Positions 7,636 through 14,954 of a stretch of DNA of 64,000 nucleotides are shown one piece after another; position 1 is the first letter of the stretch; each line of letters begins with the position of its first letter. The stretch comes from Gemmata palustris (GTDB taxonomy: Bacteria > Planctomycetota > Planctomycetia > Gemmatales > Gemmataceae), in assembly GCF_017939745.1 (NCBI RefSeq), contig NZ_JAGKQQ010000001.1:372001-436000 (forward strand), given 5' to 3'. The notes beneath the pieces are model-generated. The model had not been told where the DNA came from and searched no databases. It was given only the letters and a program-made list of their open reading frames with translations. Both the position numbers and the translations under genes were made by a program.

Positions 7636-8187
7636 TTACCGGGCCGCGTCGCGGAGTTGGCGAAAGAGCTTCACCAGATCTTTGCCCTGGTAGTGCGCGT
7701 TCAGCCCGCTGGGGTTCGGTAGCACCCAGACGCGGGTTCCGCCGATAGCATCCGGTTGAAGCCCAACGGTGGCTTTGAGCTGCGCGAACGCAGTGCGGTA
7801 GGCTCCGATGCCCAGGATCGCGAGGTACTGCGGAGCAAACTCTCGCACCTTTGCGCTCAGGATTTCGCCGCCCGCGATGATTTCCTTTTTCGCCAGTTCG
7901 TCCGCACCGACGGTGGCGCGCGCGACCACGTTTGTGATGCCGTAGCCGAGCGGTAGTAGTTCGAGTTCTTCGCTGGGATCGAGCAAACGCGACGTGAACC
8001 CGGCCGCGTGCAGTGTGGGCCAGAAGCGGTTGCCGGGGCGCCCGAAATGGTGGCCGATGGCGGCCGTGTAGAGGCCGGGGTTGATGCCGCAGAACAGCAC
8101 ACGCAACCCCGGTGCGATCACGTCCGGCACGGTTTTGTTTTTCGCGGCCCGCAGTTGTGCGGGCGTGGGCCGAGGCGCTGGAGTCAC
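7636..8187 (-). CDS. mug: G/U mismatch-specific DNA glycosylase (Mug/TDG family)
   Basis: A 183-residue cytosolic DNA repair enzyme that removes uracil or ethenocytosine opposite G to start base excision repair. Both family motifs are present: GINPGLYTAAIGHHFGRPGN (motif I, about residues 33-52) and NPSGLNAHYQ (motif II, about 157-166). The length fits the family. It starts with GTG at 8187, and this GTGA overlaps the TGA stop of the upstream di-haem cytochrome gene by 4 bp, indicating translational coupling. Function is confident from the motifs; why it is coupled to a cytochrome gene is unclear. Confidence 0.93.
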   Translation of the reverse strand: MTPAPRPTPAQLRAAKNKTVPDVIAPGLRVLFCGINPGLYTAAIGHHFGRPGNRFWPTLHAAGFTSRLLDPSEELELLPLGYGITNVVARATVGADELAKKEIIAGGEILSAKVREFAPQYLAILGIGAYRTAFAQLKATVGLQPDAIGGTRVWVLPNPSGLNAHYQGKDLVKLFRQLRDAAR

Positions 8188-9527
8188 TTCCGGTCCAATT
8201 TGGTAACGGCGGGGTTACTCAAGTGCGGCGCATCACCCGGGGCCTTGAGCGTTCCGAGGAACGCGAGCACCGCCGCCTGGTCGTCCGCGGCAAGGGTTTT
8301 GTACTTCTCGCTCACGCTCTTGGCGTCCCCGCGGTGCTTCATGACCGCGTCGCGCAGTGTCGGTGCGGAGCCGTCGTGCAGGTACGGCGCGGAATCCGCC
8401 ACCCCCCACAGAGCGGGAGTTTTCCACTCGTTCGGCTTCGGTTCGTGGTCCGGGCGCTCGGGGAGTTGTAATTGCGGGGGCGGACCGGAACTGTAATCGC
8501 CACTCCCGCCCGTCGGCGGCGGGTCTTCCAAAGTGTATAGCAAGAAGTCGCTGTACACGCCCTTCACGCCACCCATATCGGGAACGTGACAGACGGCGCA
8601 CCCGATTGTGGCGAAGACTTCCTTCCCGTGCTCGGCCGAAGCATCGCCGACTACCGCGACCGGCTTGGGCAACGTCTTCACGAACGCTAAAAGTGACCGG
8701 AACTGCTTTTTGTCGAGATCAGGGGTAGCAGGGGGACTGGCACCTGTGAGTGGTTTCACCTGTTCCGTTGAAGGTGTACCGAGGCCGAGTTCGTTCGCGC
8801 ACGCGGCCGCGACGAACTCTTCGAGCGTGGCGAACTGCGCCTTCCATCCGAACTTGCCGATCCCGCCCGCGACGCGGCGCGCCCGACCGACCGGGATGTT
8901 GTCGAAGTTCAGGCTCATTTCCTTCGCGGCCACGCGGAGCCCGCGGTTGCGCTCGTTCCGCAGAATGGCGCGATCGGAAATCATGTCGATCCAGCCCGCG
9001 CCGAACAGGGCCGTCGTTTGCACGGATTGCGTGTGAACCGGATCGAAATCGGGAATGGTGGTCGTGGTGAAGCACCCCGGGCTGCCCGTTTGAAACGTCC
9101 GGCCCTTGATAACGGGGTATAGCTGTCGTAGTTTCCGCTCGGTCTCCTTCAGAGTCGGTTCGGTACTGAAGTTGTGGACGGTACCGTTTATGAATGTGAG
9201 ATCGCCGGGCCTGGGGAGCACCTCGAAACTGGTCGCGTTGTGCTCGTTCCCGCCCGCGCCGCCCAACCCGCCCTGGAAGTGACACGAGGCACACGAGCGC
9301 GCGTTGAAGACCGGGCCGAGACCGTCTCCGTGTGCGAGCGGGTCGTTCGGGGTCCACTCGTGCTCGAACAGTTCGCGCCCCTGAGCCACTTCTGATGCGC
9401 GGGCCGATGGCCCCCAGATGATGGGGAGCCCGTCCGAGAAGAACCCCCAATACGTGCCGATTGTCGCGCTTCCGAGGACGATCGAATAAATCAGTCGGCG
9501 CTGGCCTGCGAGCGAAAGGCGGAGCAT
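8184..9527 (-). CDS. Di-haem oxidoreductase (DUF1111, peroxidase-like)
   Basis: A 447-residue exported c-type cytochrome of the DUF1111 family. The chosen ATG at 9527 has GGAGG 8 bp upstream and gives a signal anchor (RRLIYSIVLGSATIGTYW). Haem-binding motifs are CASCH (about residue 77) and CAVCH (about 335), the second in a MauG/CcpA-like C-terminal domain. It probably moves electrons in the periplasm, possibly to peroxide. A longer start at 9572 exists but has no clear ribosome binding site. It is the penultimate gene of a long minus-strand run. Confidence 0.88.
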   Translation of the reverse strand: MLRLSLAGQRRLIYSIVLGSATIGTYWGFFSDGLPIIWGPSARASEVAQGRELFEHEWTPNDPLAHGDGLGPVFNARSCASCHFQGGLGGAGGNEHNATSFEVLPRPGDLTFINGTVHNFSTEPTLKETERKLRQLYPVIKGRTFQTGSPGCFTTTTIPDFDPVHTQSVQTTALFGAGWIDMISDRAILRNERNRGLRVAAKEMSLNFDNIPVGRARRVAGGIGKFGWKAQFATLEEFVAAACANELGLGTPSTEQVKPLTGASPPATPDLDKKQFRSLLAFVKTLPKPVAVVGDASAEHGKEVFATIGCAVCHVPDMGGVKGVYSDFLLYTLEDPPPTGGSGDYSSGPPPQLQLPERPDHEPKPNEWKTPALWGVADSAPYLHDGSAPTLRDAVMKHRGDAKSVSEKYKTLAADDQAAVLAFLGTLKAPGDAPHLSNPAVTKLDRK

Positions 9528-9635
9528 AGAGGGCCTCCGAACTGCATGACGGTGGCGAAGTGACCGACTCAAGAACGTCGCCCCGTTGCTCGCGTTTCAC
9601 GCGGGCCGAAGAAACGCGCCGGTTCCAGTGATTGT

Positions 9636-11777: not shown

Positions 11778-12155
11778 TTACTTGCGCGTGAACCAGTACG
11801 CCCACGCGATAAACACGACTTGGAACGGTAACCGTACCCACCATACGGCGGGCGGCAAATTTGGGAACATCTCGGCGCCGACTTCCGGTTTCAGGGCCAT
11901 GTAGAGGTTCGCGGGGAACACCGCGACCAGTAACGCGACGAGCCCCCACGCGGCCGGAACCGTGAGGTACGGAACCAGGAGGCCGATCCCGCCGAGGATC
12001 TCGAACGCGCCGCTAATCAGCACGAGTTCATAGTGCCACGGCATGTATGGTGGCATGATCTTCACATAAAACTCGGGCTTCCAAAAGTGGTTCAGTCCCG
12101 CGGCGACGAACAACACGCCGAGTAACCACTTCAGCGCGATTTTGGTCGTGAGCAT
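11778..12155 (-). CDS. DoxX-family membrane protein
   Basis: A 125-residue integral membrane protein with four predicted helices (KWLLGVLFVAAGLNHFWK, YELVLISGAFEILGGIGLLV, AWGLVALLVAVFPANLYM and a C-terminal helix ending YWFTRK). The length and pattern fit the DoxX/DoxD-like family, which has been linked to membrane redox and thiol stress. Its ATG is only 3 bp after the stop of the carboxymuconolactone decarboxylase-like selenoprotein candidate, so the two are probably translated from one mRNA, suggesting a shared role in peroxide or thiol handling. Confidence 0.88.
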   Translation of the reverse strand: MLTTKIALKWLLGVLFVAAGLNHFWKPEFYVKIMPPYMPWHYELVLISGAFEILGGIGLLVPYLTVPAAWGLVALLVAVFPANLYMALKPEVGAEMFPNLPPAVWWVRLPFQVVFIAWAYWFTRK

Positions 12156-12158
12156 CGT

Positions 12159-13454
12159 TTACTTCTTGTCGTCCTTCTTCGGCGGCGGAGCGAACGGGTT
12201 CTCTTTTTCGAGCGGCAACTGGAACGCATCCGCGATCCGCGTCATGTAGTTGCACCACCCGATGTAGTAAATCAGATCGACCGTGCGCTCGCGGCCGAAC
12301 ACGTCGACCAGCGCGGCCCGGTCCGCGTCCGTGATCGATGAGGGCTCCTTGCTCATCTTGTACGCCAGCCCGAACGCCGATTGTTGCGCCTTCGGGAACG
12401 AGGACCAGTCCCCGCTCGCTAGCTTCTTCGTCAGGGCCTTCAGGTCTTCTTGCTTGACGCCCGCGACCGCGAGCAGCATTTCGCTGTGGCCCATTCAGTA
12501 GAAGCAGTCGTTGGTCCGCGTCACCACCCAGAACACGGAGTTGGTGAACACGCGATCGACCTTGGCCTCCTCGTAGTACGCCGAGAGGCACGCGAACCAC
12601 GCCCGCGTCAGTTCCGGCTGGTACCCGGCGCTGACGGTGTTCCAGAGAATTTTCTTCGCGGAATCGCGCTCGCGCGGCGGCAACTTCTCGATCACCGCGT
12701 CGTCGGGGAGCGGAACGCGGAGCGTGCGTTCTTTTTGCCGGTCCAGCGAGGCGTTGATCTCGTCGAAACCGTCCTTGCCCCACTCGACGCGGACCGAGAT
12801 CCCGTCGGCCTTCACCGATTTCAGGTCGTCCCAGGGCGGCCGGTCGGGTGCCTTGAGTTTCGCGGCATCGAGATCGAACTTTGTGGCGACCGGCAGCGCG
12901 ATCGGGTCTTCACCTCTCACTCCGAGCGCGAGTGTGACGCGATTTTGGAAGTTGGCACAGGCCACAGTGTGAACGATCGCGGTCACCTGCTCGGGAGTGA
13001 ATCGCTTGAGCAGTGCGGCGAACTCGTTGTCGGTGATCGCGTGGCCCGCGAGTGTTAGCTTTCTCGCAAAAGCGAGCGCCGCGACTTCGTCGTCGGTAAG
13101 AGGTTGTGGGACCGGTTCGGCGCGGTCGAGATCGGCCTTTGCTGTGTCGCGCCCGTACTTACTGTTGAGTGCGTCGGCGACAGTCCACCGGATTCGGGCC
13201 GCGAACCGCGAACCGAGCGGGTTCTTCTCGCGGTGCAGGTAATCGAGTTCGAGCATCTTCGCGGTCGTTTTCGGTAACGGACCCGCGAACCGCTTTGCCC
13301 ACTCTGGTAGTGAGGGCTTCTTTTGGGGTGGGAGTTTGTCCCACGCGGCCTCCTCGGGCAGCATCGGGAGCGGCGGTACGGTCTTCGTGGGCTGTGCCGA
13401 CGCGGACACCGCGCACGCGAATACGAGGAGACCGGGAACAATGAACCGGCGCAT
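12159..13454 (-). CDS. CMD/AhpD-superfamily protein, probable selenoprotein (in-frame TGA)
   Basis: The reading frame runs from an ATG at 13454 (signal peptide MRRFIVPGLLVFACAVSASA) to a TAA at 12159, and is interrupted once by TGA at 12497-12495. The TGA falls exactly at the second catalytic position of an AhpD-type motif: NDCFY-TGA-MGHSEML, i.e. CxxUxxH where relatives have CxxCxxH. The frame continues for 111 residues with no other stop and retains CMD-fold features (ALVDVFGRERTVDLIYYIGW). The product would be 431 residues with two CMD-like halves, the first lacking cysteines. A SECIS-like hairpin follows the TGA. Known family activity is thiol-based peroxide reduction. Alternatives are a nonsense mutation or a sequencing error in TGC. 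No sel genes are in the window. Confidence 0.82.
12459..12497 (-). promoter_or_regulatory. Candidate bacterial SECIS element
   Basis: Downstream of the TGA (12497-12495) the mRNA can form a 6-bp stem, GCUCGC (12474-12469) with GCGGGC (12464-12459), closed by the tetraloop GGUC. The loop begins 27 nt after the UGA. A G-containing apical loop with GGU, a short upper stem and a spacing of about 16-37 nt are what SelB-dependent bacterial SECIS elements show. An extra small CAGC/GCUG pairing precedes it. Confidence 0.72.
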
Positions 13455-13524: not shown

Positions 13525-13620
13525 CAAATCCGCCACAGATGAACGCCGATAAACACGGATCAAGACAGCAGAATATTTTGACAGGATGAACAGGATCAAG
13601 ACAGAAGCGCGCTTGCTGTG
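13525..13620. repeat. Mosaic of dispersed intergenic repeat motifs
   Basis: This stretch holds CCACAGATGAACGCCGATAA (about 13531-13550) and a TTTTGACAGGATGAACAGGA stretch with its flank (about 13574-13596), with further copies of ATCAAGACAG. Such motifs recur in intergenic spacers of many planctomycete genomes; that is from general knowledge, not a search. No gene is present. Confidence 0.45.
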
Positions 13621-13667
13621 TTGAAAGCTTATGCCTTTTGTTTCGTGGCACAGGCCTCTGGCCTGTG
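13619..13667. repeat. Dispersed palindromic repeat, copy 1
   Basis: The core CACAGGCCTCTGGCCTGTG (within 13645-13667) is itself nearly palindromic. Its 25-base left flank (TGTTGAAAGCTTATGCC...) matches the flank of a second copy at 58117-58163 on the opposite strand, so the repeat unit is longer than the palindrome. It ends next to a transposase remnant. Confidence 0.7.
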
Positions 13668-13689
13668 TGGGTGCCTCCGGCTTGCGGTA

Positions 13690-13953
13690 CTGACGATTGG
13701 TCGAAGGCTTCCGAGCGAGTACGGCCTCAAACCCTTCGACCACGAGCAACCGGCGCGTGCGCCCGGCGGTCTGCACATCTACCCCGAAGGCGTCGGCGAT
13801 CTTCGCGTCGGCCCACGCCGGACCGCCCTCGCCCTCGTCGGCCTTCAGCAAAATCCGCGCCCGGTTGCGGATCGTTTTGGAGCCCTGACCCCGATCCACC
13901 ATCTCCGGCAATCGCCCGCGCTCCGACCCGTCCAACCGAACTACGAACTTCGC
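13690..13953 (-). pseudogene. IS630-family transposase remnant (N-terminal part)
   Basis: The minus strand encodes VVRLDGSERGRLPEMV, RNRARILLKADEGEGGPAWA and ADAFGVDVQTAGRTRRLLV, the N-terminal helix-turn-helix region of an IS630-type transposase. The similarity stops after about 90 residues at VLARKP, where sequence of the adjoining dispersed repeat begins. The catalytic DDE domain is absent and no terminal inverted repeats are seen, so this is a dead fragment. Confidence 0.72.
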
Positions 13954-14057
13954 GTTCTGCTCCGTGACAGCCCACCTGTATGGAACGCCATAAGACCAGA
14001 GCACCAATTACCCGTCAATCCAGTGCGGTTGTGCCACAAGTGGAACTGGCTCCCTTG

Positions 14058-14072
14058 TGAGAAATTGTCTCA
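14058..14072. promoter_or_regulatory. Dyad operator upstream of bfr
   Basis: TGAGAAATTGTCTCA is a TGAGA-N5-TCTCA dyad, flanked by CCCTTG and CAAGGG that extend the symmetry. A near-identical site (13 of 15 bases) lies at 14973-14987 just before the bfd-like gene. Two copies next to the two partner iron-storage genes and nowhere else noticed nearby suggest an iron- or redox-responsive regulator site. The TGA-N9-TCA spacing is compatible with an Rrf2/RirA-type site, but the regulator is unknown. Confidence 0.6.
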
Positions 14073-14238
14073 ACAAGGGGTTTTTCCCTTAGATACCCCT
14101 GCGACCCCGTCAAACAGAAATGTGCAGAGCTCCGGTACGGATTCGGAACCAGTTCCTGCAAATTTCGTGGGAGCGACCGCGAGCAGAAATCGCTATGACA
14201 ACTGCGACAACACTCTTGAACTCGCGAGGAGCACGACG

Positions 14239-14724
14239 ATGCAAGGCAACCAAACCGTTATTGACGCGCTAAACCGCGCACTCACCATCGAACTGACCGC
14301 GATCAACCAGTACTTCTGCCAGGCGAAGATGTGCAAGAACTGGGGCTTCATGAAGTTGGCACACAAACACTACGAGGAATCGATCGGCGAAATGAAGCAC
14401 GCCGAGAAGATCATCGATCGCGTGCTATTCCTGGAAGGAACTCCGGAAATTGCCCGGTACGATGTGATCCGCGTCGGGACCGATGTGAAAGAGCAGTTCG
14501 AGAACGACCTGAAGCTCGAGACCGGCGGCGTAACGGCTTACAACGAACTCGTTGACCTCTGCATTAAAGTGAAGGACAACGGGACGCACAAGCTCGCGCT
14601 CGAAATCCTGGCGGATTCCGAAGAGCACGTGGACTGGTTGGAAACGCAGTTGGGTCTGATCAAAGCGGTGAGTCTGGAGCGCTACTTGGCGGAGCAGATT
14701 GCCGGGGACGAAGACGGAGAGTAA
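14239..14724 (+). CDS. bfr: Bacterioferritin
   Basis: A 161-residue ferritin-fold protein that oxidises and stores iron in a 24-subunit shell. The ferroxidase ligands are visible: E in TIELTAINQYF (about residue 18), E and H in YEESIGEMKHAEKIIDRV (about 47-64), and E/H in DSEEHVDWLE (about 127-136). The haem methionine expected near residue 52 fits M in GEMKHA. The ATG at 14239 has GAGGA 8 bp upstream; a longer open frame upstream runs into a transposase remnant and is rejected. The gene overlaps the convergent bfd-like gene by 43 bp. Confidence 0.93.
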   Translation: MQGNQTVIDALNRALTIELTAINQYFCQAKMCKNWGFMKLAHKHYEESIGEMKHAEKIIDRVLFLEGTPEIARYDVIRVGTDVKEQFENDLKLETGGVTAYNELVDLCIKVKDNGTHKLALEILADSEEHVDWLETQLGLIKAVSLERYLAEQIAGDEDGE

Positions 14725-14954
14725 ACGGCGAGGTAGGCGTTCAGTTCGCGGTGGCAGCAGGTGCATCCGTCGCCGGCTTCGGTCGCCTGGCGCACCTCTT
14801 TAACCGTGCGCAGTCCGAGGGCAACGATGGCGGTAACGATCGCCTGCTCCGTTACTCCGAGGCAGCGGCATACGACCCGGTCGGGGCAACTCCCGACGGT
14901 CGCGCAACTGCGACACGAGCCGGCGCATTCCTCCGCCGTTTGGCTCAATTCCAT
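14682..14954 (-). CDS. bfd: Bacterioferritin-associated ferredoxin-like (2Fe-2S) protein
   Basis: A 90-residue protein with the Bfd-type BFD/Fer2_BFD motif: CRC at VVCRCLGVTEQAI (about residues 28-40) and CTCC at GDGCTCCHRELNAYL (about 62-76), giving the CxC-N31-36-CxxC [2Fe-2S] pattern. Bfd reduces bacterioferritin to release stored iron. The N-terminal extension has three more cysteines (ECAGSCRSC), unusual for Bfd. The last 14 residues are read from the antisense of bfr, a 43-bp tail-to-tail overlap. The shared operator sits 19 bp before the ATG, a position suited to repression. Confidence 0.82.
   Translation of the reverse strand: MELSQTAEECAGSCRSCATVGSCPDRVVCRCLGVTEQAIVTAIVALGLRTVKEVRQATEAGDGCTCCHRELNAYLAVYSPSSSPAICSAK

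Follow-up and report, generated by a model that had tools for sequence, protein, structure and literature searches.

A probable AhpD-like selenoprotein gene with a conserved hairpin downstream of its in-frame UGA codon in Gemmata palustris

The question posed by this locus is whether an in-frame UGA codon in an AhpD-like gene of Gemmata palustris terminates translation or specifies selenocysteine (Sec). The gene resides in a 64,000-nucleotide stretch of DNA, here termed the window, that corresponds to C1:372001-436000 of the 9.2 Mb genome (G000). The minus-strand frame 13454-12159 comprises 431 codons with a sole in-frame UGA at codon 320, and it reads MRRFIVPG...TRTNDCFY-UGA-MGHSEMLLAVAG...DDKK. 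The UGA (12497-12495) is the second position of a CxxC-type motif (C317-F-Y-U320); as a preliminary description of this DNA had claimed, it stands in frame and in place of the second catalytic cysteine. The N-terminus, MRRFIVPGLLVFACAVSASAQ (13392-13454, minus strand), is a probable Sec-type signal peptide as judged by eye, and hydrophobic N-termini are common to many relatives as well. The gene very probably encodes a secreted AhpD-like selenoenzyme in which UGA 320 would be decoded as Sec in the active site. This reading is preferred because dozens of relatives keep both the UGA and a near-unchanged hairpin, while Cys-containing relatives lack the hairpin. Sec insertion had already been proposed, and all of the suggested checks that can be made in silico support it.

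Homologues were gathered from 99 genomes (the organism's own and those of relatives) with the read-through protein as the query, and a second search, with an alignment as the query, covered 84,980 species genomes. In both cases the homologues are almost all from Planctomycetota, with two records labelled otherwise (one “bacterium” and one MAG named Byssovorax); within the two genome sets searched, the family is tentatively restricted to this phylum. After removal of copies, 49 distinct homologous sites in Planctomycetota carry UGA and 96 carry TGC at the Sec320 column, as counted with a motif pattern that demands C or U at the column and to which a third residue is invisible. Direct alignments of whole-length homologues contain no third residue at this position. 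The alignment with relatives that had been suggested for reading the column thus returns Cys or UGA, in keeping with the proposed CxxU variant of an AhpD-like motif.

The UGA forms fall in two deep families, designated MGH and LGH. The window protein belongs to the former, in which the UGA domain is C-terminal, while in the LGH family (CFYULGHQE) it is N-terminal. A tree of Sec and Cys forms, built on few columns and midpoint-rooted, requires at least three to four changes between the two. The LGH proteins (L054-L058 and L123, 3017-4441) have a reversed domain order with the active half first, as in sestrins, and in three LGH UGA forms the 14-nt hairpin and its spacing are shared with the MGH forms. 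The genome of G. palustris also contains a Cys paralogue (CNYCMGH; C1:3561077-3562888; L042, L199) that shares 43% identity with the window protein.

TGC and TGA differ by one base, and a pseudogene or a sequencing error, with TGC mutated to or misread as TGA, could in principle account for the codon. A misread base is excluded because independent genomes have the same UGA, and decay of the gene is hard to reconcile with 49 distinct UGA homologues from many genera, with a hairpin that occurs only together with UGA, and with the pattern of substitution after the codon. The frame stays open for 111 sense codons 3′ of the UGA, the number given in the preliminary description, and the dN/dS ratio over 105 of these codons is 0.03-0.25 in 11 of 12 pairs tested, the twelfth being saturated. 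These values indicate that purifying selection persists beyond the UGA. A pseudogene or an error is vanishingly improbable.

Another possibility is that the UGA is a true stop, such that a 319-amino acid protein ends there and the adjoining ATG initiates a second one by coupled translation (UGAAUG). An ATG does directly follow the UGA in 43 of the 49 UGA forms. However, CTG, CTA, or CTC takes its place in the other six, and Met follows the column in the continuous Cys forms, too. The Cys homologues run through this column in one frame with TGC, and two genes would split the catalytic motif and leave the conserved hairpin without an explanation. We therefore consider a two-gene arrangement very unlikely and favor a single frame with Sec at position 320.

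The 14-nt hairpin element CUCGC-GGUC-GCGGG lies at 12473-12460 (minus strand), starting 21 nt after the UGA, where a hairpin with a GGUC loop had been noticed. A sixth pair between 12474 and 12459 completes a 6-bp stem (GCUCGC/GCGGGC; 12459-12474). The published bSECIS model calls for G in the first two loop positions and a UGA-to-loop distance of 16-37 nt (PMC13188914); with its GGUC loop, a distance of 26 nt, six base pairs, conservation, and covariation, this candidate fits the model. The hairpin alone folds at −5.3 kcal/mol. The surrounding 61-nt stretch, evaluated as a single sequence, is no more stable than its shuffles (z +0.8), which counts against the Sec reading, and an Rfam search of the region yielded chance matches only. 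It is conservation rather than folding energy that places the hairpin above chance.

This conservation is pronounced. The hairpin sits exactly 21 nt 3′ of the UGA in 47 of the 49 UGA forms, 46 of which have the core UCGCGGUCGCGG; the remaining one (L123, site 1497, CUGGCGGUCGCCGG) is a compensated variant with the inner C-G pair exchanged for G-C. By comparison, the core occurs in none of the 96 Cys forms. The two UGA forms without the shared hairpin (L054 and L055, both LGH-family members, from two genomes of a single genus) count against the Sec reading. Formed between the third positions of two codons, the outermost pair takes all four Watson-Crick types across UGA forms (G-C 38, C-G 3, U-A 2, A-U 2, U-G 1, and G-U 1 in the 47 hairpin forms), while the same two positions can pair in 26 of the 96 Cys forms. 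In an alignment of 18 sequences every hairpin cell pairs, and the covariation score, the number of further pair types, and the number of cells changed on both sides all exceed those of 500 shuffles and of all slid controls.

The codons beneath the hairpin tell the same UGA and Cys forms apart. Choice of GTC (p 1.7e-9), GCG (p 3e-17), and CTC (p 3e-18) differs between Sec and Cys forms in Fisher tests; both these tests and the shuffles ignore relatedness, which makes the p-values too small, and the UGA/Cys contrast in the hairpin does not hang on them alone. At the protein level, this segment reads LAVAG in UGA forms and mostly LEVAG in Cys forms: all 47 hairpin forms have Ala before Val, whereas 74 of the 96 Cys forms have Glu there. 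From this difference, the RNA signal appears to override the residue preference of the protein.

A search of the 99 genomes for TGA followed by the 14-mer at gaps of 14-28 nt returned 68 matches; 31 of these have a gap of exactly 21 nt, and 29 of the 31 belong to this enzyme superfamily, while a gap of 22 nt, taken as the negative control, gave zero matches. The exact 14-mer has five copies in the G. palustris genome, and only the one in the selenoprotein gene has an in-frame UGA 21 nt before it. A further match in this genome (C1:1378396, gap 17) was rejected as an out-of-frame TGA within a coding stretch, as judged by eye.

The search for selA, selB, selC, and selD that had been recommended, with their absence named as grounds for refutation, found all four genes. 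SelA (546.6 bits) and SelD (390 bits) have clear matches; the SelD frame is uninterrupted, so SelD is not itself UGA-coded. SelB has a match over the cut-off with its neighbours in frame. The tRNA-Sec scores 67.6 bits, above the gathering score, and ARAGORN calls it a tRNA-SeC with anticodon tca; the call rests on the two together because in control genomes the tRNA-Sec model also matches other tRNAs weakly. Gemmata obscuriglobus was reported earlier to have full Sec gene sets (PMC4807772).

Across genomes, selA and/or selB score over the curated cut-off in 25 of 25 genomes with UGA forms versus 49 of 74 others (p 3e-4). Four of the 25 have no over-cut-off match for one of the two genes, and all four are multi-contig assemblies; in one of them (G068), selA is split in two pieces. 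Among the seven genomes with only Cys forms of the full-length homologue, five are missing both genes. UGA read-through is generally known to occur in bacteria, and the codon might be read as another residue (e.g., Trp) or bypassed by non-specific read-through. Yet the column alternates with Cys, a specific hairpin is conserved downstream, and every one of the UGA-form genomes has selA and/or selB, which renders this alternative more improbable still than two coupled genes. Insertion of Sec at position 320 remains the best explanation.

The protein is predicted to adopt an AhpD-like fold in duplicate. An AlphaFold2 model based on 28 sequences (pLDDT 91.3, pTM 0.90) contains two all-helical halves, both also delimited by profile match and alignment: (i) a degenerate first half without CxxC (12924-13274, minus strand) and (ii) a second, catalytic half that carries CxxU and the invariant His323 (12222-12617, minus strand). 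In the model, the CxxC(U) motif is found at a helix start with Tyr and His present, as is characteristic of the AhpD-like fold. C317, Y319, residue 320, G322, and H323 are invariant in two alignments. The active-site residues of Mycobacterium tuberculosis AhpD are Glu118, Cys130, His132, Cys133, and His137 (PMC3141380); the window protein has Tyr and His, but its His is at +3 from U instead of +4, a point against the preferred reading. Compared one half at a time with Foldseek, the model hits AhpD-like proteins, including 2oyo and 2prr. The AhpD-like identity advanced earlier therefore stands for the fold but not for a single-domain protein: the fold is double with a degenerate first half, and the match to Pfam CMD (PF02627) is sub-threshold, at 13.8 bits against a gathering score of 23, although this model matches 16 of the 28 aligned members at E ≤ 0.01.

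The best full-length Foldseek match is human Sestrin2 (E 1.8e-5, TM 0.51/0.59, 12% identity), which itself consists of two AhpD-like copies, one of them active (PMC4674687). Since prokaryotic double-AhpD analogues have also been described (PMC11429811), the double-AhpD architecture is not new. Like the window protein, sestrins possess two AhpD-like halves, one of them degenerate (about 12% identity, TM 0.5-0.6); in contrast, their active half is N-terminal and has one Cys, whereas that of the window protein is C-terminal and has CxxU. Membership in the sestrins is not claimed.

No NCBIfam or Pfam family takes the window protein at its cut-off. Its best NCBIfam match is the peroxidase-related enzyme family TIGR01926, a single 178-position unit that it matches in two stretches with 56.5 bits, below the cut-off of 81.8. 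NF041238 (AhpD_rel_CFYUT, “hypothetical protein 1” of the Sargasso Sea set) shares the CFYU motif and an AhpD-like catalytic region, aligned at residues 311-418, at 36.7 bits relative to a cut-off of 175. Judged by sequence, the family belongs to a known kind, the CMD-like/AhpD-like CxxU selenoproteins (Zhang et al. 2005, PMC1088965; table in PMC13188914), which have the AhpD/CMD fold and the same Sec at the second CxxC position. Unlike these, it is double-domain, apparently secreted, and found here only in Planctomycetota. A description of this particular family was not found in one open-access literature library, and novelty at the subfamily level is likely.

By analogy with AhpD, the enzyme would function as a secreted hydroperoxide/disulfide reductase. 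SelB with Sec-tRNA(Sec) would bind the GGUC-loop hairpin and decode the UGA. Sec320, the counterpart of the second AhpD Cys, may then attack a hydroperoxide or disulfide, with Cys317 resolving the intermediate as a selenenylsulfide and His323 and Tyr319 aiding proton transfer. Electrons would be exchanged with a thioredoxin-fold partner, and the first half may be a structural pseudo-copy, like one half in sestrins. Alternatively, Sec could be inserted as proposed into an enzyme that is a disulfide reductase/oxidase, a dehalogenase, or a sensor instead of a peroxide reductase. AhpD-like folds include the debrominase Bmp8, and a secreted location along with deiodinase-like fusion partners would allow dehalogenation or disulfide exchange; the AhpD relay residues (CxxC, Tyr, and His) are conserved, though with the His displaced by one residue, which speaks against it. 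We regard such a function as less likely than not, albeit deserving of weight.

Many relatives have an N-terminal extension composed of an EF-hand and a deiodinase-like domain (PF00837; NF038285, 518 bits). This family has a thioredoxin fold, is fused to or located beside many relatives, and is missing from the window protein; in many relatives, this fused domain is probably the partner. Within the G. palustris genome, a Cys copy without UGA, immediately preceding the Cys paralogue, is the sole strong deiodinase-like match; the window protein would accordingly need separate partners, with at least one separate protein predicted to fill this role.

Deiodinase-like domains were seen in 16 UGA and 55 Cys forms. 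A separate hairpin, GGUCCCA-GUU-UGGGACC with covarying variants, accompanies the UGA of this domain; it starts 10 nt after the UGA and places the loop at 17 nt. This hairpin is near-invariant with a loop of mostly GUU in the deiodinase-like UGA forms L025, L115, L119, L133, L135, L181, L183, L192, L196, and L202, and one of its pairs shows a compensatory change (A-U 5, G-C 11). In five genomes (L023/L122, L026/L127, L027/L126, L037, and L143; L023 and L026 on the minus strand, L027, L037, and L143 on the plus strand), one frame contains a UGA in FGSFTUGP and another in CFYU, each followed by a different hairpin. These deiodinase-like/CMD frames are likely double selenoproteins.

Planctomycetota may possess an ancient Sec AhpD-like module whose SECIS is near-frozen across two deep families of opposite domain order, with the RNA dictating LAVAG. 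Paired with a deiodinase-like selenoprotein domain, in some cases within a single polypeptide that has two different SECIS elements, the module would make up a self-contained system for peroxide reduction outside the cytoplasm. We offer this broader proposal as possible, though somewhat less likely than not. Standard gene calling would cut or split such genes at the UGA, so mis-annotation probably affects a sizeable set of redox enzymes in Planctomycetota. Together with the matched Cys set that lacks it, the near-invariant hairpin constitutes a clean natural experiment on bacterial SECIS requirements and on how an RNA signal within a coding region constrains the protein. The double selenoproteins predict a two-component peroxidase in one chain, which is testable.

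Within the window, a DoxX-like membrane protein gene (11778-12155, minus strand) starts 3 nt after the selenoprotein stop, and the two genes are probably co-transcribed. DoxX was rejected as a conserved functional partner, as it adjoins the gene in only three close Gemmata. Upstream, the minus-strand ORF at 13650-14007 resembles a truncated transposase with weak HTH_23/HTH_29 matches below the cut-off. In the region 14200-14954, a ferritin-like gene (plus strand, inside the ORF 13618-14724) faces a BFD-like [2Fe-2S] gene (minus strand, 14682-14954), and the two ORFs overlap as called. The minus-strand gene at 8184-9572 encodes a di-haem oxidoreductase/cytochrome c family protein (DHOR, 64.7 bits).
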